In this document: positions 1,608 through 17,728 of the stretch, piece by piece | Layout of the letters: each line of letters opens with the position of its first letter | Numbering within the stretch: the stretch's first letter is position 1 | DNA from: Sphingobium sp. 15-1 | Lineage (GTDB): Bacteria > Pseudomonadota > Alphaproteobacteria > Sphingomonadales > Sphingomonadaceae | NCBI RefSeq assembly: GCF_013375535.1 | Contig: NZ_JABXJG010000001.1 | Coordinates: 3,018,001 to 3,082,000, forward strand | Direction of reading: 5' to 3' | DNA: 64,000 bases | The notes under the pieces: generated by a model | What the model saw: the letters and a program-made list of their open reading frames with translations, nothing else | What the model was told of the DNA's origin: nothing | The model's database searches: none | Position numbers and translations under genes: made by a program

Positions 1608-3818
1608 TTATCGGCCAATGGCATAAATGCGGCAGTAGGTCGGGCGGTCAGCATCATTGTCCGAACGAGCGCGCATGACGGTGCAGCCGCTGGTCGTTGG
1701 GTCGCCAACCAATTGATACCATGTGTCAGCTTCCACGCTGGCGATGTCGACACGCGTTGTTAGCTGTACATCCAACACCGCATTCGGGAACTGAATAGGA
1801 AAGGTTGCGGACGCCGTGGTTTCAACATTCTGCTGCGATGCAGTCGTACACCACTGCATGATCATGCCGTTCGGGAGCCTTTGATAACCCGCAGCCGACA
1901 AATTGTTGGCGAAATCGGCATATTTCGCCAAGTCGCTGGCTTGGTAGCCGTCGACCATATCGGCATCCAGACCGGAGCCGCTGCCGTCATTGTCGGGGCC
2001 GAACAGGTGGTTCCCCGCGCGGCGAACGGTCGAGCCGTTCACATCCAAAATACCACCCGACAGATTGCCGTCGAAGACGAAATTGCCCTGATCGGTCGCA
2101 TCGACAGTCGCCTTGAGGCGCGTGCCGGCCCATCCGATATAGACGAAGTTGGAGCCTTGGCCGACGCCGCCGCCTATCCTGACGGGTGTATAGCCGAGGC
2201 GGGCTGGAATGTTCGTGAAATAGCTGCTGTCCTGCCCGTCGAGAAGATCAGCATCCAAGCCGGAGCCAGCGCCGTCATTGCCTGCGTGCCAGAGGGGATT
2301 GCCGCTCCAAAGCAAGGTGCCTGACTGAAACAGCGCGAGCGAACGAACAAAAGCCCCCGATGTGTCCGAAAGCGCAAAAGTCAGAGCGCTGGCGGTTGTG
2401 TCGTAATAGCCGACCACGCGATCAACATTATTGGCGGAGGGACGCCAGATGAACGCGGGCGAAGCTGAAATGCTGTAAAAGTTGGTCGCGTTCACTGCGC
2501 CGGTGAATGTATCCCCCGCTCTGTTCGCGGGCGTGTAGCCAAGGCGAGCCGTTATGTTCGTGTAATAGCCGCTGTCCTGTCCATCGAGCATGTCGGCGTC
2601 GAGGCCAGACCCGGCACCGTCATTACCGGCGTGCCACACGGTCGATCCGTTATAGGTCATGCCGCCGGACGACCAGAGCGAGAAATATCGCTCGTTGCCC
2701 GCCGACTGCCGGTTCCAAGAGAAGGTCAGCCCTCCCGTTTCATGCAGGTACATGATGGCCTGATTGGCACCGCTGTTTGGCAGCGCCACTTGCCCCGCAT
2801 AGATTGTCGGAACAGCAATGTTCCCCGTAAACGTGTCGCCTGCCCTATTCGCTGGCGTATATCCAAGCCGGGCAGTGATGTTGCTATAGTAGCTCCCGTC
2901 CTGCCCATCGAGCAAATCTGCGTCGAGGCCGGATCCGCTGCCATCATTGTCAGGGCCGAACAGATGGTAACTTCCACGGCGAACGGTTGCGCCGTTCACG
3001 TCCAGAGCGCCGCCAGAAAGATTGTTGTCAAAAACGAAATTGCCCTGATCTGTGACATCAACGGTCCCCTTCAAGCGGGTTCCAGACCATCCGATCTTGA
3101 CGACGTTCCCCAGCTGACCGTTGCCTGTGCCCTGCTGGACCGGCGTGTAGCCGAGGCGAGCAGTGATGTTGGAATAATAGCTACCCTGCTGGCCGTCGAG
3201 CAGATCGGCATCCAGCCCCGATCCTGCGCCGTCGTTCGCCGGATGCCAGATACCTGAGTTGCCTACGCCAAAGCGGGCGTCGAGCCAGGCGGTCACCGCG
3301 TCCTTCACCATCTTCGCAGCAGGAACGCGGCTGGTGTCGAGTCCAGCGATCGTTTCGGCCAAAGTGGACAGTTCAACGACGCCAATCTGTTCAGTTGTGG
3401 CGGGCGGGTTGAGGAAATTGGCGTCGCCAAAGGTGATGGTGGTGGCTGCAATGTCCTCGAATTTGACGTCGATGCCGAGCAGCATCATGGCCTGCGCGGA
3501 TTTCTCGATCAGGACGGCGGCCTGCCCGTAAATGCCGAACAGCGTCCCGTCGGCCAGATACATTGCGAGGCTGCGCACGTTGAAAACGTCGCCGCTTTCG
3601 TCCCGCACGATCAGGTGAATGGTATCGTCCGCGACGACATCGCCCGACAGTGTCGCGAGGCGCTTGAATTCACCAGGCAGGGCCGCAGTAGCCGGGGTGG
3701 CGGTGACGGCGGTCGCGGTAAGCCCGACTTGGGCGATCGTGACAGGTGCCGTCCCGGTGTTGGCGGCGTTCACGAGCGCGGTGCGGCCCGCATTGGTGAC
3801 GATGAAGGTAAAGGCCAT
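1608..3818 (-). CDS. Phage tail fibre with five internal repeats
   Basis: A 736-residue receptor-binding fibre at the P2 gene H position. Residues 1 to about 140 resemble the phage tail-collar fibre N-terminal domain that docks on the baseplate. The shaft carries five copies of an NDG(A/S)GSGLDAD(L/M)-DG motif, beginning near residues 194, 289, 398, 513 and 608. Four are followed by a Y(Y/F)-NI-ARLGYTP block, and two of these by ANRAGDTFTG. A longer unit around IGW-GTRLK and NFVFD-NLSGG occurs twice (about 242-288 and 561-607). From residue 643 the sequence GYQRLPNGMIMQW resembles the gp53-like fibre tip. The repeats probably form a trimeric shaft. The start overlaps no other gene; gene I ends 11 nt upstream. 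Confidence 0.85.
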   Translation of the reverse strand: MAFTFIVTNAGRTALVNAANTGTAPVTIAQVGLTATAVTATPATAALPGEFKRLATLSGDVVADDTIHLIVRDESGDVFNVRSLAMYLADGTLFGIYGQAAVLIEKSAQAMMLLGIDVKFEDIAATTITFGDANFLNPPATTEQIGVVELSTLAETIAGLDTSRVPAAKMVKDAVTAWLDARFGVGNSGIWHPANDGAGSGLDADLLDGQQGSYYSNITARLGYTPVQQGTGNGQLGNVVKIGWSGTRLKGTVDVTDQGNFVFDNNLSGGALDVNGATVRRGSYHLFGPDNDGSGSGLDADLLDGQDGSYYSNITARLGYTPANRAGDTFTGNIAVPTIYAGQVALPNSGANQAIMYLHETGGLTFSWNRQSAGNERYFSLWSSGGMTYNGSTVWHAGNDGAGSGLDADMLDGQDSGYYTNITARLGYTPANRAGDTFTGAVNATNFYSISASPAFIWRPSANNVDRVVGYYDTTASALTFALSDTSGAFVRSLALFQSGTLLWSGNPLWHAGNDGAGSGLDADLLDGQDSSYFTNIPARLGYTPVRIGGGVGQGSNFVYIGWAGTRLKATVDATDQGNFVFDGNLSGGILDVNGSTVRRAGNHLFGPDNDGSGSGLDADMVDGYQASDLAKYADFANNLSAAGYQRLPNGMIMQWCTTASQQNVETTASATFPIQFPNAVLDVQLTTRVDIASVEADTWYQLVGDPTTSGCTVMRARSDNDADRPTYCRIYAIGR

Positions 3819-5313: not shown

Positions 5314-5344
5314 GCATTTGTAGAGGCGGCCTCTACAAATGGAC
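5314..5344. promoter_or_regulatory. 27-bp palindrome, putative late-gene activator site (copy 1)
   Basis: The arm CATTTGTAGAGGC (5315-5327) is followed by one base (G) and its exact reverse complement (5329-5341). The conserved block extends to a leading G and a trailing GAC, 31 nt in all, and recurs at 13098-13128 with only the central base changed. It sits between baseplate J (leftward) and the cargo gene (rightward). P2 late promoters carry a TGT/ACA dyad near -55 that binds the zinc-finger activator Ogr; this element has TGT and ACA 13 nt apart. Activator-site function is inference. Confidence 0.7.
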
Positions 5345-12163: not shown

Positions 12164-13006
12164 TCAGCAGTCGGTCAGGAAGGCTGCATTGCCGCCGCCG
12201 CTGGCCGGCTGACGCGAAAAGCCCTGCTGTTCGGTATTTTCCAGCTTGGCGGTGAGTTCCGCGACGGCGGCGTTGGCAGCGTTCGCCGCGTCCAGGGCGG
12301 GCTTGACGGCGGCGGCCACCTGCTCGCCGATCGCGGCGAAGGCAGCTGTGAAATCCACAGCATTGTCGTTCGCGGGCTTGGGCTGGGGTTCTTCCTTCGG
12401 CTTTTCCGTTTCAGAGCGGCTGAACATGGTGGCGATGCTGGCGAAGCCGGCCTTGATGGCATCGGCCACGCTGCCATTGTCCGCGCCATCCGGCTCCATG
12501 ACGATCGTGGTTTCGATCGAGGCGGAGAACAGATTGTCGGGATGCACCTTGCGGGCGTCGAACATCGGCTTCAGGCCGGAGAAGGATAGGGCTTCGGTGC
12601 CGAGCGACGCGGGATTGTCGGTGACGGCCAGGCCGACCAGGCCCACTTTGCCGGTGCCGGCGAAATCGGGGCTGATTTCGACCGATGTGAAGATTTTCTG
12701 GCCGGCCTTGTTGATCTTCAGCAGCTGTTCGTTCGGCTCGACCTGCGCATAGAGCGCGCGGCAGCGTACCTTCTGGCCGTCGATTTCCAGTTCGTCATGC
12801 TGGGCCTTTACCGCCGTGACGCTGCCATAGGCGTTGAAGGGCGGTTCCGGGCTGAAGCCCTTGATATGCTCGCAGTTGATGCGCGGCGTGTAGGTCGCGG
12901 CGTTGAAGGTGGCGACGATATCGTCAATCCATGCGGCCTCGATCTTGCGGCCATCGCTGGCGGTGAAGCCCTCGACGAAGACGCGGAAAAATTTGCTCTT
13001 TGCCAT
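12164..13006 (-). CDS. Capsid scaffold/maturation protease (P2 gpO-like)
   Basis: A 280-residue scaffold with an N-terminal serine protease domain. Asp18 (TASDGR), His47 (INCEHIKG) and Ser108 (IFTSVEI) lie at positions corresponding to the Asp-His-Ser triad reported for P2 gpO. The sequence KSKFFRVFVEGFTASDGRKI is the family's opening and GLVGLAVTDNPASLGTEAL its other conserved block. The C-terminal 100 residues are alanine- and charge-rich helix (AFAAIGEQVAAAVKPALDAANAANAAVAELTAKLE), the scaffolding part. It is the first gene of the leftward late operon O-N-M-L-X-lysis-R-S, starting about 92 nt from the palindrome copy 2. Confidence 0.9.
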   Translation of the reverse strand: MAKSKFFRVFVEGFTASDGRKIEAAWIDDIVATFNAATYTPRINCEHIKGFSPEPPFNAYGSVTAVKAQHDELEIDGQKVRCRALYAQVEPNEQLLKINKAGQKIFTSVEISPDFAGTGKVGLVGLAVTDNPASLGTEALSFSGLKPMFDARKVHPDNLFSASIETTIVMEPDGADNGSVADAIKAGFASIATMFSRSETEKPKEEPQPKPANDNAVDFTAAFAAIGEQVAAAVKPALDAANAANAAVAELTAKLENTEQQGFSRQPASGGGNAAFLTDC

Positions 13007-13097: not shown

Positions 13098-13128
13098 GCA
13101 TTTGTAGAGGCCGCCTCTACAAATGGAC
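13098..13128. promoter_or_regulatory. 27-bp palindrome, putative late-gene activator site (copy 2)
   Basis: Same 13-nt arms as at 5314-5344 (13099-13111 and 13113-13125) around a single central base, here C instead of G, with the same flanking G and GAC. It lies in the gap between scaffold O (leftward) and terminase P (rightward), so one element could serve both divergent operons. In P2 the O and P promoters are likewise divergent and Ogr-dependent. An ATG at 13123 falls inside the palindrome, which argues that the terminase starts farther downstream. Confidence 0.7.
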
Positions 13129-13170
13129 GGGCATGATCAGTGGGTTAGCGGCGCGGCATGGTCCGCCGCG

Positions 13171-15039
13171 ATGAGCGATCAGAAACCTTCTGGGCAATCC
13201 CCCCAGCCCGGCGCGCCGTCTGCCTTCTGGCAGTTCGATCCGCGCCGGCATGCGCGCAGCCTGTATTGGAAGGGCTGGGGCGTGACGCAGATCGCGGACG
13301 AATTCGCGCTGCACGGCATCGTCAACGACAAGGGCGGGCCGATCCCGCGCGCGACGATCGAGGCGTGGAAGCAACGCGACCGTTGGGATGATGCGCCGTC
13401 GATCCGCAAGATAGAGGACTGCCTCGAAATCCGGCTGATGACGCTGATTTCGAAGGAGAAGAAGACCCCCGGCGACTTGGTCGAAATGGACGCGCTGACC
13501 AGGCAGGTCGAAGCGCTCGCCCGCGTCCGCCGCTATGAGGCCCCCGGCGGCCATGCCGGCGATCTGAACGACAAGGTCGGCAACCGGAACGCGGGACCGC
13601 GCAAGAAGCCGAAGAAGAACCATTTCACCGCCGACCAGGCGGCCGAACTGAAGCGCATCTTCCTCGACGGCCTGTATGATTATCAGCATCGCTGGTGGCA
13701 GGCGAAGGATCAGCGCACCCGCATGATCCTGAAGTCGCGCCAGATCGGCGCGACCTATTATTTCGCGTTCGAAGCCCTGATCGATGCGATCGAGACGGGC
13801 CGGAACCAGATTTTCCTATCGGCGTCGAAGGCGCAGGCGCACCAGTTCCGGTCCTATATCGTCAGCTTCGCGAAGCTGGTCGGCGTCGCGCTGACCGGCG
13901 ACCCGATGCTGATCACGTCGGACCTGCGCCCGGCGGAGGAAGCGGCGGCCGAACTGCACTTCCTGGGGACCAATTTCCGCACCGCCCAGGGCCGGCACGG
14001 CAATTTCTATTTTGACGAATTCTTCTGGGTCCATTCGTTCGAGGAATTGAACAAGGTCGCTTCGGGCATGGCGACCCATAAGAAGTGGCGGAAGACCTAC
14101 TTTTCCACGCCATCGACCGTCGCGCATCCGGCCTATCCCTATTGGACCGGCGACCGTCGCAACCGGCGCCGCAAAAAGTCCGAGCAGATCAAGATTGACG
14201 TTAGCCATGCCGCGCTCGCGCTGGGCAGCGTCGGGCCGGATCGCATCTGGCGGAACATCGTCAATATCCGCGACGCGGAAACGGGCGGGTGCGACCTTTT
14301 CGATATTGAGGAGCTGGAAGACGAATATGCGCCCGACGAATTCGCCAACCTGTTCATGTGCGACTTCGTGGACGACAGCCAGTCCGCGTTCAAATTCAAC
14401 GATCTGATCCGCTGCGGCTGCGATAGCCTGGTCGACTGGACCGACTTCAATCAGGAAAGCGCGCGCCCCTTCGGCAACCGGCCTGTCTGGGCCGGCTATG
14501 ATCCGCAGGAGAGCGAGGACGGCGACAATGCCGCCCTGGTCATCGCAGCGCCGCCGGCGACCGAAGGCGGGTCATTCCGCATCCTTGAACGCCACCAGCT
14601 GCGCGGCCTCGATTTCGAGCAGCAGGCCGATTTCATCAAGGCGATGCTGAAGCGCTACAACTGCACCTATCTGGGCATCGACGCGCGAGGCGTGGGCGCC
14701 GGCGTCTATCAGATCATGGCGAAGCCGGACGCGCTGCCTGGTGGCGTCGTCGCCAAGATCGAATATTCGCTGGAACTGAAACAGCACATGATCATGAAGG
14801 CGCAGAATGTCGTGCGCCGTGGCCGCATCGCGTTCGATGCCGGCATGCTCGACATCGTGTCGGCCTTCGTCTCGATCAAGAAGACCCTGACGACCAGCGG
14901 GCGCAACATCACCTTCAAGGCAGGGCGCGGCGGCGATGACGGCCATGCCGATCTGGCCTGGGCGACCATGCACATCCTCATGAACGAACCGCTGGACGGC
15001 AAGGAAATGCCGACAGCCAGATTGGAGCTATTCGAATGA
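13171..15039 (+). CDS. Large terminase ATPase/nuclease (P2 gpP-like)
   Basis: The large terminase that powers DNA packaging, 622 aa from the ATG at 13171. I prefer this over the in-frame ATG at 13123, which lies inside the putative operator. N-terminal SLYWKGWGVTQIADEFALHG is an HTH-like region typical of gpP. The ATPase shows a modified Walker A, KSRQIGAT (residues 188-195), and Walker B, YFDEFFW (280-286). The C-terminal nuclease region includes RPVWAGYDPQESEDGDNAALV with its acidic residues, YLGIDARGVGAGVY, and DDGHADLAW near the end. The portal gene overlaps the stop by 4 nt. Confidence 0.92.
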   Translation: MSDQKPSGQSPQPGAPSAFWQFDPRRHARSLYWKGWGVTQIADEFALHGIVNDKGGPIPRATIEAWKQRDRWDDAPSIRKIEDCLEIRLMTLISKEKKTPGDLVEMDALTRQVEALARVRRYEAPGGHAGDLNDKVGNRNAGPRKKPKKNHFTADQAAELKRIFLDGLYDYQHRWWQAKDQRTRMILKSRQIGATYYFAFEALIDAIETGRNQIFLSASKAQAHQFRSYIVSFAKLVGVALTGDPMLITSDLRPAEEAAAELHFLGTNFRTAQGRHGNFYFDEFFWVHSFEELNKVASGMATHKKWRKTYFSTPSTVAHPAYPYWTGDRRNRRRKKSEQIKIDVSHAALALGSVGPDRIWRNIVNIRDAETGGCDLFDIEELEDEYAPDEFANLFMCDFVDDSQSAFKFNDLIRCGCDSLVDWTDFNQESARPFGNRPVWAGYDPQESEDGDNAALVIAAPPATEGGSFRILERHQLRGLDFEQQADFIKAMLKRYNCTYLGIDARGVGAGVYQIMAKPDALPGGVVAKIEYSLELKQHMIMKAQNVVRRGRIAFDAGMLDIVSAFVSIKKTLTTSGRNITFKAGRGGDDGHADLAWATMHILMNEPLDGKEMPTARLELFE

Positions 15040-16079
15040 GCAAGCGCGCGCGCCGCATGAACCGCCGGGAAATGGCCGAGGCGTCGAAGGGCGCGATCGT
15101 CGCGACCAATGACAATAGCCCGACGATCGAGGCCTTCTCCTTTGGGGAGCCGGAGCCGGTCAACCGGGCGACCCTGCTCGATCTGCTGGAATGCTGGCAC
15201 AATGGCCGCTGGTATGAGCCGCCGATTTCCATGGACGGGCTGTCGCGGACGCTGCGCGCGTCGCCGCATCACAGCAGCGCGATCATGTTGAAAAAGAACA
15301 TGCTGGCGGCCAGCTTCATTCCCACGCCGTTTCTGTCGCGTCGCGATTTCCGCGCCCTGGCGCAAGACTATCTGGTTCTGGGCAACGGCTATGTGCAGGA
15401 AATCCCGAACAGGCTTGGGCGCACGATGCGCCTCGACCATTGCCTGGCGAAATATACGCGGCGCGGTGTCGAGCAAGGCCGTTTCTATTGGGTGCCGGGG
15501 CATCAGCCGGAAAGCGAGTTCGCGCCGGGGACCGTGCATCAGCTGATGGCCGAAGACGTCAACCAGGAACTCTATGGGGTGCCGGAATATGTGCCGGCCA
15601 TCCAATCGGCTTTGCTGAACGAGAACGCCACCCTGTTCCGGCGTCGCTATTACGAGAACGGAAGCCACGCGGGCTATATCCTCTATCTGATGGGGCAATT
15701 TGCCGATGGCGACGTGGGCGCCATGCGCAAGGCGTTGGAGCGGTCGAAGGGACCGGGCAATTTCCGCAATCTGCTGCTGCATGCGCCCGCCGGCAAGGAA
15801 AACGGCGTCAAGCTGCTGCCGATCGCGGAGGCTGGCGCGAAGGACGAGTTTCTGGGGATCAAGAACACGACGCGCGACGACATCCTGGCGGCGCATCGGG
15901 TGCCGCCCCAGCTGCTGGGCATCGTGCCGGCGAACGCCGGCGGCTTCGGTGACGTGACGAAGGCGACCGATGCCTTCTTTGAACTGGAAATCCAGCCGTT
16001 GCAGTCGGTCTTCCTCGAATTGAACGAGATGATCGGCGTCGAGGCGGTGCGCTTCGCGGAGCGGGGCAAGGCGGCCTGA
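15036..16079 (+). CDS. Phage portal protein (P2 gpQ-like)
   Basis: A 347-residue portal of the P2/PBSX family. The core shows WYEPPISMDGLSRTLRASPHHSSAIMLKKNML, the FRALAQDYLVLGNGYVQ motif typical of portals, VHQLMAEDVNQELYGVPEYVPAIQSALLNENATLFRRRYYENGSHAGYI, and KDEFLGIKNTTRDDILAAHRVPPQLLGI. The length equals P2 Q (344). The dodecameric portal is the DNA entry channel and the nucleus for head assembly. Translation is coupled to terminase P by an ATGA overlap. A hairpin with a T-run overlaps its stop codon. Confidence 0.93.
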   Translation: MSKRARRMNRREMAEASKGAIVATNDNSPTIEAFSFGEPEPVNRATLLDLLECWHNGRWYEPPISMDGLSRTLRASPHHSSAIMLKKNMLAASFIPTPFLSRRDFRALAQDYLVLGNGYVQEIPNRLGRTMRLDHCLAKYTRRGVEQGRFYWVPGHQPESEFAPGTVHQLMAEDVNQELYGVPEYVPAIQSALLNENATLFRRRYYENGSHAGYILYLMGQFADGDVGAMRKALERSKGPGNFRNLLLHAPAGKENGVKLLPIAEAGAKDEFLGIKNTTRDDILAAHRVPPQLLGIVPANAGGFGDVTKATDAFFELEIQPLQSVFLELNEMIGVEAVRFAERGKAA

Positions 16080-16095: not shown

Positions 16096-16419
16096 CTATC
16101 CGCGAAAGCGGTTCACGGCGCGCTTCCATTCCCGTTCGTCGGGGAGAGGAAGGCAAATGCGGGGCGGCTCATCGCAGGTTCCAATCCATGACGGGCGCAC
16201 CTTCCGCCCAGATCGTTGCGAACATGATCGGCAGTAGAACATTCGGCGCGCGTCGCGGAAATCGTCGGACCAGCCCTTGCGTTGGAATTTCCACCAGAGC
16301 CCGTGGCCGTCGAACAGGCCGATATTCCCGCATCGGCAAGTGACCTTCACGGTGCGATGCCATGCCGCCGCCTCGAATATGCAGGTGGCGACCTTCAGTC
16401 CGTCTTGGTAGCGGGCCAC
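16096..16419 (-). CDS. Zinc-ribbon protein, candidate late-gene activator
   Basis: I chose the GTG at 16419, giving 107 residues opening (M)ARYQDGLKVATCIFEAAAWHRTV; it lies 1 nt past the upstream stop, whereas an ATG at 16473 would overlap that gene by 53 nt. VTCRCGN and FYCRSCSQ supply a CXC...CXXC set about 33 residues apart, consistent with a Zn ribbon, and the region between is rich in Trp, Arg and Lys (GLWWKFQRKGWSDDFRDARR). It forms a two-gene unit with the LexA-controlled 126-aa gene. P2 encodes a small Cys4 zinc-finger late activator (Ogr), so a similar role is plausible, but the Cys spacing differs and no homology is claimed. Confidence 0.6.
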   Translation of the reverse strand: MARYQDGLKVATCIFEAAAWHRTVKVTCRCGNIGLFDGHGLWWKFQRKGWSDDFRDARRMFYCRSCSQRSGRKVRPSWIGTCDEPPRICLPLPDEREWKRAVNRFRG

Positions 16420-16420
16420 A

Positions 16421-16801
16421 TCACCACGGCAATTCCGAAGCCAGTTCGAGCAGTTCGTCGAAATGGCGGTCATCGAAACACACGCCGCTGTCGCCCAGCG
16501 GCACGTCGTCCTCTGTCGGCTCGATCAGCCTCACGCGCGCAACGGCTTCAAGATGCGCATCATATTCATGATCGGGGATGCCGGGGCCGTCTGCGAAATC
16601 CATGAACAGGCCGCATCGACGGTTGATCATCGCGACGGCCGACGCCTGCGGCTTGATCCCTTCGGCGTCGGCAAAGGCTTCGATCGCCCCTTCGCGCCCA
16701 TAGACGATAAGCGCCCGCTTCAGCTGGTCGCCGGTGATGTCCAGGGAATTGAACTGATCCAGGCAGGATTTTGCGAAAGGCAGTATCGCGGTTGCGCTCA
16801 T
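16421..16801 (-). CDS. Unknown 126-aa protein under a LexA box
   Basis: The ATG at 16801 is preferred over that at 16807 because GAGG then sits 8 nt upstream; at 16807 the spacing would be about 2 nt. The protein (MSATAILPFAKSCLDQFNS) is acidic overall, with a Leu- and Glu-rich C-terminus (HFDELLELASELPW) and no membrane segment. Its N-terminal helical region (ITGDQLKRALIVYGREGAIEAFADAEGI) could be an HTH-like fold, but I recognise no family. The promoter has an SOS operator overlapping the -10 region (see 16831-16863). In phage 186, a P2 relative, the LexA-controlled gene tum encodes an antirepressor, so a role in induction is a reasonable hypothesis. Confidence 0.65.
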   Translation of the reverse strand: MSATAILPFAKSCLDQFNSLDITGDQLKRALIVYGREGAIEAFADAEGIKPQASAVAMINRRCGLFMDFADGPGIPDHEYDAHLEAVARVRLIEPTEDDVPLGDSGVCFDDRHFDELLELASELPW

Positions 16802-16830
16802 GTCCATGTCCTCGCTTTCGAAATTGAATA

Positions 16831-16863
16831 GAACAAATAGAGAACATTGATCGAGTCGGTCAA
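16831..16863 (-). promoter_or_regulatory. SOS promoter with LexA box
   Basis: On the plus strand GAAC-N7-GAAC occupies 16831-16845, which on the coding (minus) strand is GTTC-N7-GTTC, the established alphaproteobacterial LexA box. A TTGACC -35 (16858-16863) lies 17 nt from a CTATTT -10 that overlaps the box, so LexA would block RNA polymerase. It is 30 nt upstream of the 126-aa gene's start. Confidence 0.8.
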
Positions 16864-17044: not shown

Positions 17045-17240
17045 CGCGCACTTTTCATGTCCCTTTTGATGCAGTCGGCCACTTCCCTTCCCGGCGGCCT
17101 AGATGCTGGGCGGGATTGGTGTCGAAGGGGGCGGTCGAAAGATGCGATTTGATGCAGCTGGACGACCATTTGGCGGCGGCGATGGGATCGGGAAATTTTC
17201 GCGTCCAGGGCATGCGCCACAGAGGGAGGGGGCGGGAAAG

Positions 17241-17482
17241 CGCAACATCCATAACCCGCGCCCATCCGTTCAAATTAAGATACTGAAATCATGTAATTTT
17301 ATTGATTGCCTCTAAGGTGCAATCGGACGCCACCTTGGCGAGCGAAAAACGCAACACCCGCAGAAAACCTAGCTTTTTCAGATACTAAATGTTGCAGTTT
17401 CAAAATGTAATCTGGTTGCATAGAGGTTGCGTCAAAAGTTGCGCTAAAAATGGCGGATTTCCGTCGATGTTGCGGATGTTGC
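17241..17482. repeat. Cluster of eight GTTGC/GCAAC repeats near cos
   Basis: GCAAC occurs at 17242 and 17351 and GTTGC at 17391, 17415, 17426, 17438, 17469 and 17478, several inside longer forms such as ATGTTGCG. The segment is clearly more AT-rich than its surroundings. A second pair of direct repeats, AGATACT followed by an AAAT/TGTAAT block, occurs at about 17278 and 17380. No gene is present from 16802 to 17728. Possible roles are a terminase-binding (cosB-like) site, a replication origin, or a repressor-binding array. Confidence 0.5.
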
Positions 17483-17728
17483 GTTTTTTCCGATACCTGC
17501 CACATAATAGGAGGAAGGGCGGGCTATATCCCTAGCCCCATGGCTCCGCCGTATCGACAGCGAAGCGATAGAAGAAAAAATCTTCTATGGTAGATCATAT
17601 GGTATCAACCGACCCGAACGGCTCATGACATTCGCGAAATCAATCGCTTAGAACGAATGTGTGAAGTCCTCCCTCTCCGCCATCTAGCCCGGTCTTTCCC
17701 ATCGGTCCGGCCAGCGCCGTGACTAATC

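Follow-up and report, generated by a model that had tools for sequence, protein, structure and literature searches.

SRAP is an SOS-associated protein that handles abasic single-stranded DNA. According to the gene neighborhoods described by Aravind et al. 2013 (PMC3765255), SRAP is found in SOS neighborhoods with ImuB, DinB or UmuC and also in prophages, and two Zn-ribbon-like proteins occur in neighborhoods with SRAP and Ku. During anoxic growth of Sphingopyxis granuli, SRAP operons rise 8-10-fold along with lexA, recA and imuAB-dnaE2, and the authors ascribe this induction to DNA damage (PMC6472365, where these operons are known to us by their SRAP genes alone).

Two kinds of phage system are also close to the locus that we describe here. 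In the late control of P2, as outlined in PMC3931495, Ogr acts at TGT-N12-ACA sites; it belongs to a family of activators of these sites that bind zinc, through the motif CX2CX22CX4C. And in 186 (Tum), N15 (AntC) and the Gifsy phages, small LexA-controlled antirepressor genes lie outside the immunity region, and some antirepressors act on non-cognate repressors (as described in PMC3121763).

We studied a LexA-boxed unit of two genes in a 64,000-nucleotide stretch of the Sphingobium sp. 15-1 genome (the window). A reading made from the sequence alone, without database searches, had proposed that this unit switches on the late genes of a phage. We think that it is instead an accessory SOS or DNA-damage-tolerance cassette near the attR of a P2-like prophage, and we give this a probability of roughly two in three, with the biochemical role being a putative one. 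The cassette would be a mobile one, common to prophages and bacterial chromosomes. LexA would repress the unit through its box; DNA damage would lift this repression, presumably for the window's copy as well, so that both proteins are made together; and the products would most likely aid in tolerating the damage, although what each does biochemically can only be suggested. In the prophage, the unit would be accessory cargo, of use to the lysogen or to the phage genome once it is induced. The case is a comparative one and has four parts: the conservation of the LexA box, the link to SRAP, the pairing of the box with a GANTC site, and a separate Ogr protein that goes with the late palindromes across phages.

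The unit and the prophage that carries it

On the minus strand, the unit consists of TTGACC, GACTC, the LexA box GTTCTCTATTTGTTC, a first gene (P126), and a second gene (ZnR); the coordinates are in Table 1. Both genes of the sequence-only reading are there. A mechanical list of open reading frames begins ZnR at an ATG at 16473 instead of at the GTG, which is conserved among close relatives. Translation of the two genes is probably coupled.

Table 1. Features of the unit and its surroundings (positions in the window)
Feature	Position	Strand	Remarks
Late palindrome	5315-5341		Upstream of the baseplate J gene; putative site of the prophage's Ogr
Scaffold protease O	12164-13006	-	Divergent from P
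Late palindrome	13099-13125		Between O and P; putative site of the prophage's Ogr
Terminase large subunit P, P2-type	13123-15039	+	Listed ATG is within the palindrome
Portal gene Q, P2-type	15036-16079	+	Converges on the unit
ZnR (second gene, 107 aa, Cys4 zinc-ribbon-like)	16096-16419	-	GTG start 1 base past the P126 stop
P126 (first gene, 126 aa)	16421-16801	-	Predicted helical; rare family found in SOS loci
LexA (SOS) box GTTCTCTATTTGTTC	16831-16845	-	Conserved upstream of ZnR in relatives; motif of host lexA/recA
GANTC (CcrM-type site, GACTC)	16853-16857	-	3' of the -35 and ahead of the LexA box, at position -12 from the latter
-35-like hexamer TTGACC	16858-16863	-	Begins 18 nt ahead of the box
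attR core, 15 bp	17668-17682	+	Right prophage end; same as the tRNA-Ser 3' end (C1:2997118-2997132)

The four cysteines of ZnR are arranged as C-x-C (C-x2-C in a few relatives) and then C-x2-C, and they are invariant in all 43 sequences of alignment A3, the window's included. (L064 and L065 have stop codons within the matched ZnR, so they were excluded from this alignment, while we retained them in the locus counts.) It is on the strength of these cysteines that we, too, call the protein a zinc ribbon, and it probably binds metal. Neither protein has an accepted match in Pfam, PHROGs, NCBIfam, or PADLOC. In Pfam, ZnR hits Zn_ribbon_CSL only (E = 0.031) and P126 hits 5_nucleotid_C (E = 0.22), both under the cut-off. 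The AlphaFold2 model of ZnR is confident (pLDDT 93.7), and searching the PDB for its fold gave nothing under E = 1.8; VIA-align returned a single weak row (Z 2.5, 55 residues of a DUF35 chain), and a profile search of the PDB sequences gave one match, at E = 0.72. The lack of a match to this model need not mean that the fold is new. The model of P126 is helical and of middling confidence (pLDDT 75.2), and its fold search gave nothing in the PDB under E = 1.5. In several Sphingobium cassettes, a third gene of about 107-120 aa lies 3' of ZnR (such as L031 10326-10688 and L037 10331-10654); the copy in L031 has no Pfam match.

The window contains two matches to the box where 1.25 would be expected, which is unremarkable, and we rejected this count as evidence by itself. 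We accept the box as a LexA site because it is conserved in relatives. We assembled 61 ZnR loci (36 + 25, from genomes and viral contigs, including a few near-duplicates), and 54 of these have at least 700 nt upstream of the gene. A same-strand box lies within those 700 nt in 47 of the 54 loci, as compared to 0.58 expected from the rate in the remainder of the same loci and to 2 boxes in antisense. If we group the proteins at 85% identity, then the box is present in 33 of 39. It is also present in 27 of 30 loci of a second set, which contains the window and shares some of its loci with the first set. Seven loci have no box in the 700 nt (L041, L044, L048, L053, L063, L065, and L066), which counts against our reading of the unit as an SOS cassette; in L041, there is a box just past this limit, and in L048 and L053, there is one on the opposite strand. 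The host's lexA and recA genes share the motif, with boxes that begin 33 and 63 nt, respectively, before the longest ORF start. Box conservation and the host motif support the original proposal that LexA governs both genes. Given these comparisons, we consider LexA control of the unit to be very likely, and DNA damage very probably induces the P126-ZnR pair.

The sequence-only reading also had the box overlapping the -10 region of the promoter. The TTGACC hexamer is real, and TTGACCGA is found at the same spacing from the box in 18 relatives. The -10 region is a putative one, as a consensus sigma-70 scan gave no promoter match at the unit.

The window's edge cuts a prophage of 38.6 kb (approximately C1:2997118 to 3035682), and the unit is within this prophage, about 0.8 kb from its right end. 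Genes for a P2-type terminase, portal, scaffold, capsid, baseplate, and Ogr all lie between the att sites, which is why we describe the prophage as P2-like. Because the listed ATG of P falls inside a palindrome, the true start of this gene is probably further in. An integrase-like gene (C1:2997285-2998631, named by eye) lies 152 nt past the tRNA-Ser. The part of the prophage beyond the window also includes a Toprim-containing primase-like gene, a repressor with HTH and S24 domains (C1:3006882-3007541), and an Ogr/Delta protein (C1:3004882-3005226). The latter matches PF04606 at 40.5 bits, as compared to a cut-off of 26.3; the match proper is at C1:3005020-3005157, and it is the only PF04606 match in the genome. 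The element had been described as showing no repressor in view, but this was because the edge of the window cuts the prophage, so we attach no meaning to the apparent absence.

A few other features of the prophage may be of interest. The repressor is separated from the tail genes by a Septu-like PtuA/PtuB defense pair, as identified by PADLOC (L004 8585-9775 and 9772-10512, or C1:3007585-3009512). Iterated CTATAGAC-type motifs precede the S24 repressor (L004 7800-7870) and are likely operators. Just inside attR, at 17240-17480 of the window, are repeated GTTGC/GCAAC motifs that are perhaps arm sites for the integrase or an excisionase. And the tail-fibre gene (1608-3818 of the window) contains degenerate repeats at 1931-3250 (4 x 136 nt and 2 x 220 nt).

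Late palindromes and the Ogr protein

The palindromes in the sequence-only reading do exist. Besides the two in Table 1, there is a third 1.3 kb to the left of the window (C1:3016668-3016690), and if we allow up to three mismatches, the host genome has three copies, all within the prophage. It is tempting to suppose that ZnR, induced via LexA, acts as Ogr does, by binding these palindromes and directly turning on the genes for packaging, tail, and lysis. A single prophage does combine the box and the palindromes with a Cys4 protein, and zinc-binding activators are what act at such sites in P2-type late control (PMC3931495). Like the Ogr/Delta proteins (PF04606) of P2 and P4, ZnR is a small Cys4 protein in a P2-like phage with dyad late sites. 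But the prophage already has an Ogr of its own. ZnR does not match the PF04606 profile, and in the window's copy, 32 residues separate its C-x-C and C-x2-C pairs, which is not the motif given for Ogr in PMC3931495.

The distribution of the palindrome also argues against this proposal. A scan of viral contigs found 32 stretches in 24 contigs, and we checked 11 of these contigs, several of which are fragments, for both proteins. All 11 are records of other phages in which the palindrome is exact. None of them has ZnR (the same query does find ZnR in the window's genome), while five encode an Ogr that is 62-95% identical to that of the window's prophage. The six records without Ogr are five fragments of 8-20 kb and one record with a length of 36 kb. 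In the other direction, of the 20 P2-like loci with ZnR (39-92% identical to the window's), only L078 matches the palindrome at five or fewer mismatches, in a scan that covers the locus stretches rather than whole phages; the Ogr of L078 is 62% identical to the window prophage's. Counting the window's, there are 21 records or genomes with ZnR, and 15 of these have a PF04606 match (for L040, at the genome level rather than placed in the same phage as ZnR). The genome of L039 has no match, and neither do five contigs, which are 6-29 kb in length. We also noticed other palindromes close to the gap between O and P in L078 and in L080/L085.

Across phages, then, the palindrome tracks Ogr rather than ZnR, and we rejected the palindrome as a target of ZnR. 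The simplest reading is that Ogr is what acts at the palindromes: the late genes would be switched by the prophage's separate Ogr, which would bind there. Furthermore, ZnR is widespread away from P2-like genes, where it is usually near SRAP, which makes a function in P2-type late activation unlikely. Overall, we consider it very unlikely that ZnR has such a role, and we view the late-switch reading of the unit, tempting as it is, as corrected. For late control in this group of phages, we predict that Ogr proteins and palindromes co-vary as pairs.

The neighbors of ZnR

ZnR is found in 73 of the 397 genomes from the family (including the window's) and in 39 of 96 genera, with the weakest matches spanning the Cys region only. 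No named phage genome has a relative of P126 or ZnR at E = 0.01. Of the 61 ZnR loci, 20 are P2-like, as they have homologs of the window's phage near ZnR (within flanks of up to 10 kb). Among the other 41, three have just an integrase-like match (L041, L050, and L060), one has a match to P126 (L037), and 37 have none. Seven of these 41 loci are viral contigs, so other types of phages carry ZnR as well.

What ZnR is usually near is SRAP. We scanned 101 flanking ORFs from 19 loci (out of 236 ORFs chosen from 34 non-P2 loci), and SRAP was the most common Pfam family, with 10 matches. With tblastn and both sets of loci pooled, 62 loci have enough flank, and in 51 of these SRAP is no more than 3 kb from ZnR. 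Flanks of 8.5 kb or more on both sides are available for 23 loci; SRAP is that close in 20 of them and 3-9 kb away in one. Among the P2-like loci, SRAP is nearby in 11 of 20, and nine do not have it near ZnR, several of these having short flanks. In L038, a gene with matches to the polymerase IV family (under the curated cut-offs) is divergent from the unit, and we read it as a probable ImuB; L130 has the same box as L038 and its ImuB-like stretch is 100% identical.

We propose a role in damage tolerance because the block of box, first gene, and ZnR is usually near SRAP and, in a few loci, near genes for Y-family polymerases. These are the same neighbors as in the SOS neighborhoods of PMC3765255, and the SOS context is shared, with the caveat that the likeness between ZnR and the Zn-ribbon-like proteins in that account is by description. 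The induction of the S. granuli operons together with SOS genes (PMC6472365) is consistent with this role. In contrast to the neighborhoods in PMC3765255, the window's ZnR is in a genome with no match to SRAP (PF02586) anywhere, even though control genomes were positive. This absence, along with the nine P2-like loci, counts as evidence against an SOS cassette, and it implies that the window's copy works without its usual neighbor or else not at all. Also, as ZnR has no recognized family or fold, its role is assigned via guilt by association. A literature search did not find a paper that joins at least three of SRAP, zinc ribbon, LexA, and alphaproteobacteria, which is not proof of absence, and it found neither DUF6771 (a family of first genes, see below) nor a tested function for relatives of P126 or ZnR. 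The broader implication is that a Cys4 family with no accepted match in four libraries belongs to SOS cassettes in the genomes of sphingomonads and in several phages.

An SOS-induced unit could also act on the host. Caulobacter responds to DNA damage with small inhibitors of division, such as SidA, which is controlled by the SOS response. Another Caulobacter inhibitor, DidA, is induced by damage independently of SOS (PMC4211646), and the operons described in PMC3121763 indicate that prophage SOS operons can hold dinI-like genes. So the unit might encode an inhibitor of growth or division, or a DinI-like protein that modulates RecA or LexA, and thereby keep the damaged host on hold, or tune it, during the prophage's decision. 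We think this is quite unlikely: no named family from the four libraries gave an accepted match, and the unit's steady link is with SRAP.

The first gene of the cassette varies. We found a 55-aa type (T1), DUF6771 (PF20561), an HTH_26 protein, and others, while P126 is rare. Single-sequence searches with P126 found nothing in viral contigs and only the window itself among 298 genomes from the family; with an alignment as the query, we found just the contig of L090 among viral contigs and 4 of 397 genomes, including the window's. (We rejected G061, with E = 5e-4, as spurious because BLAST gave no support.) Four relatives of P126 are behind boxes, which fits with an SOS cassette: in L037 and L090, the box is followed by a P126-like gene and ZnR; in L150, by a P126-like gene and an HTH protein; and in L151, by a P126-like gene and a polymerase-IV-like gene (under the NCBIfam cut-offs), with SRAP upstream.

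Could the first gene be an antirepressor? Self-cleaving repressors have an Ala-Gly about 35 residues before the active Ser. The only Ala-Gly in this prophage's repressor precedes the putative active Ser by 58 residues, a longer distance that could make an antirepressor necessary. In this scenario, P126 (or T1 in relatives) would be a LexA-controlled, Tum-like protein that frees the prophage after damage, with ZnR as an accessory. In keeping with this, the first gene does differ between phages, and the sequence-only reading had drawn the parallel to Tum. One part of that parallel stands. As with Tum, AntC, and the Gifsy antirepressors (PMC3121763), there is a small gene outside of the repressor region whose conserved box suggests control by LexA. 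However, the type of first gene does not follow the repressor. Nine other records have a related repressor (35-66% identical over the matched part, with G300-G302 matching residues 1-68 only), and the first gene in all nine is of the T1 or DUF6771 type and never P126. The T1 phages G307-G311 show no repressor that is related to the window prophage's. Moreover, T1 (in L038), DUF6771 (for example, in L043), and a P126-like gene (in L037) are found at loci where we found no P2-like gene nearby. In these respects, the first-gene families differ from Tum, AntC, and the Gifsy antirepressors, in a comparison that was by description and family libraries only. Although antirepressors that act across repressors (PMC3121763) keep the idea alive, the parallel is weakened, and an antirepressor role for the first gene seems unlikely to us.

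The GANTC site at the promoter

The most interesting feature of the unit is the GANTC site that accompanies its LexA box. In Caulobacteraceae and Hyphomonadaceae, GANTC is conserved at the LexA-controlled genes ruvC and imuA, and the account in PMC7987155 explains this by overlap of the motifs, with no apparent regulatory effect. In Agrobacterium, depletion of CcrM raises the expression of SOS genes (as reported in PMC11514494).

All 74 of the other boxed ZnR promoters have GANTC within 40 nt of the box, and so does the window, which we counted separately. After dereplication at 80%, it is present in 51 of 51 promoters where 4.5 would be expected, and because of shared ancestry these are not 51 independent events. 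This supports the view that the unit belongs to a family of SOS cassettes. Of 15 other five-base patterns with the same palindromic form, none exceeds 2.13-fold. The sites form two clusters. One is at -12, which is past the -35 but ahead of the box; the other is near +32, mostly within the first codons of gene 1. The P126 promoters in L150 and L151 have GANTC as well. Like the sites at ruvC and imuA in PMC7987155, these are conserved at LexA-controlled genes, but they differ in being outside of the box, mostly near -12 or +32, and in being present at every boxed promoter. What we add here is this fixed pairing of LexA box and GANTC, outside the box and in a mobile cassette.

The pairing is not general to all LexA boxes. 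The boxes of the host's lexA and recA have no GANTC. Among the matches listed for the host genome, we examined 24 boxes, most of them chosen by eye for AT-rich spacers, and 7 of the 24 have it. In the loci of relatives, we looked at 37 further boxes, and it is present at 15.

The codons of the first gene bear on whether the site matters. We found 18 of these first genes that have no GANTC upstream, and in all 18 the codons for an R-I, R-F, or R-L pair contain GANTC. The Arg codons used (CGA or AGA) are uncommon, making up 207 of the 1,380 Arg codons in ZnR genes. Fifteen first genes have both an upstream GANTC and an R-I-like pair. In 11 of these, all T1-type, the similar peptide is encoded without GANTC, whereas the other four (L046, L060, L091, and L140) have the site in both places. 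Many of these first-codon sequences are related, and the codon test is not independent of the 51 of 51.

CcrM methylation, perhaps with GcrA, may adjust the promoter via this conserved site. Specifically, the promoter might be gated by both LexA and methylation: LexA would have to leave and GANTC would have to be in the right methylation state, which might be read by GcrA. A mobile SOS module with such a gate would fire only on damaged DNA at a given stage of replication or methylation, and it could distinguish a newly entered or just-copied phage genome from a resident prophage. The codon usage of genes with and without an upstream site favors this idea, while the four genes that have both sites do not fit it well. 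Also, we lowered our estimate slightly because of the lack of a regulatory effect at SOS genes of another group, as described in PMC7987155. We put the gate forward tentatively, as a possibility that we would bet against. If the pairing is functional, then it would be a simple system for asking whether cell-cycle DNA methylation gates the response to DNA damage, and also how prophages use such gating.

There may be another LexA-GANTC gene in the host. In L202 (C1:2082025-2085039), a LexA-type box at position 1501 has GANTC at both -15 and +31, and the ORF behind this box looks, by eye, like a protein of the pyridoxamine-oxidase type.
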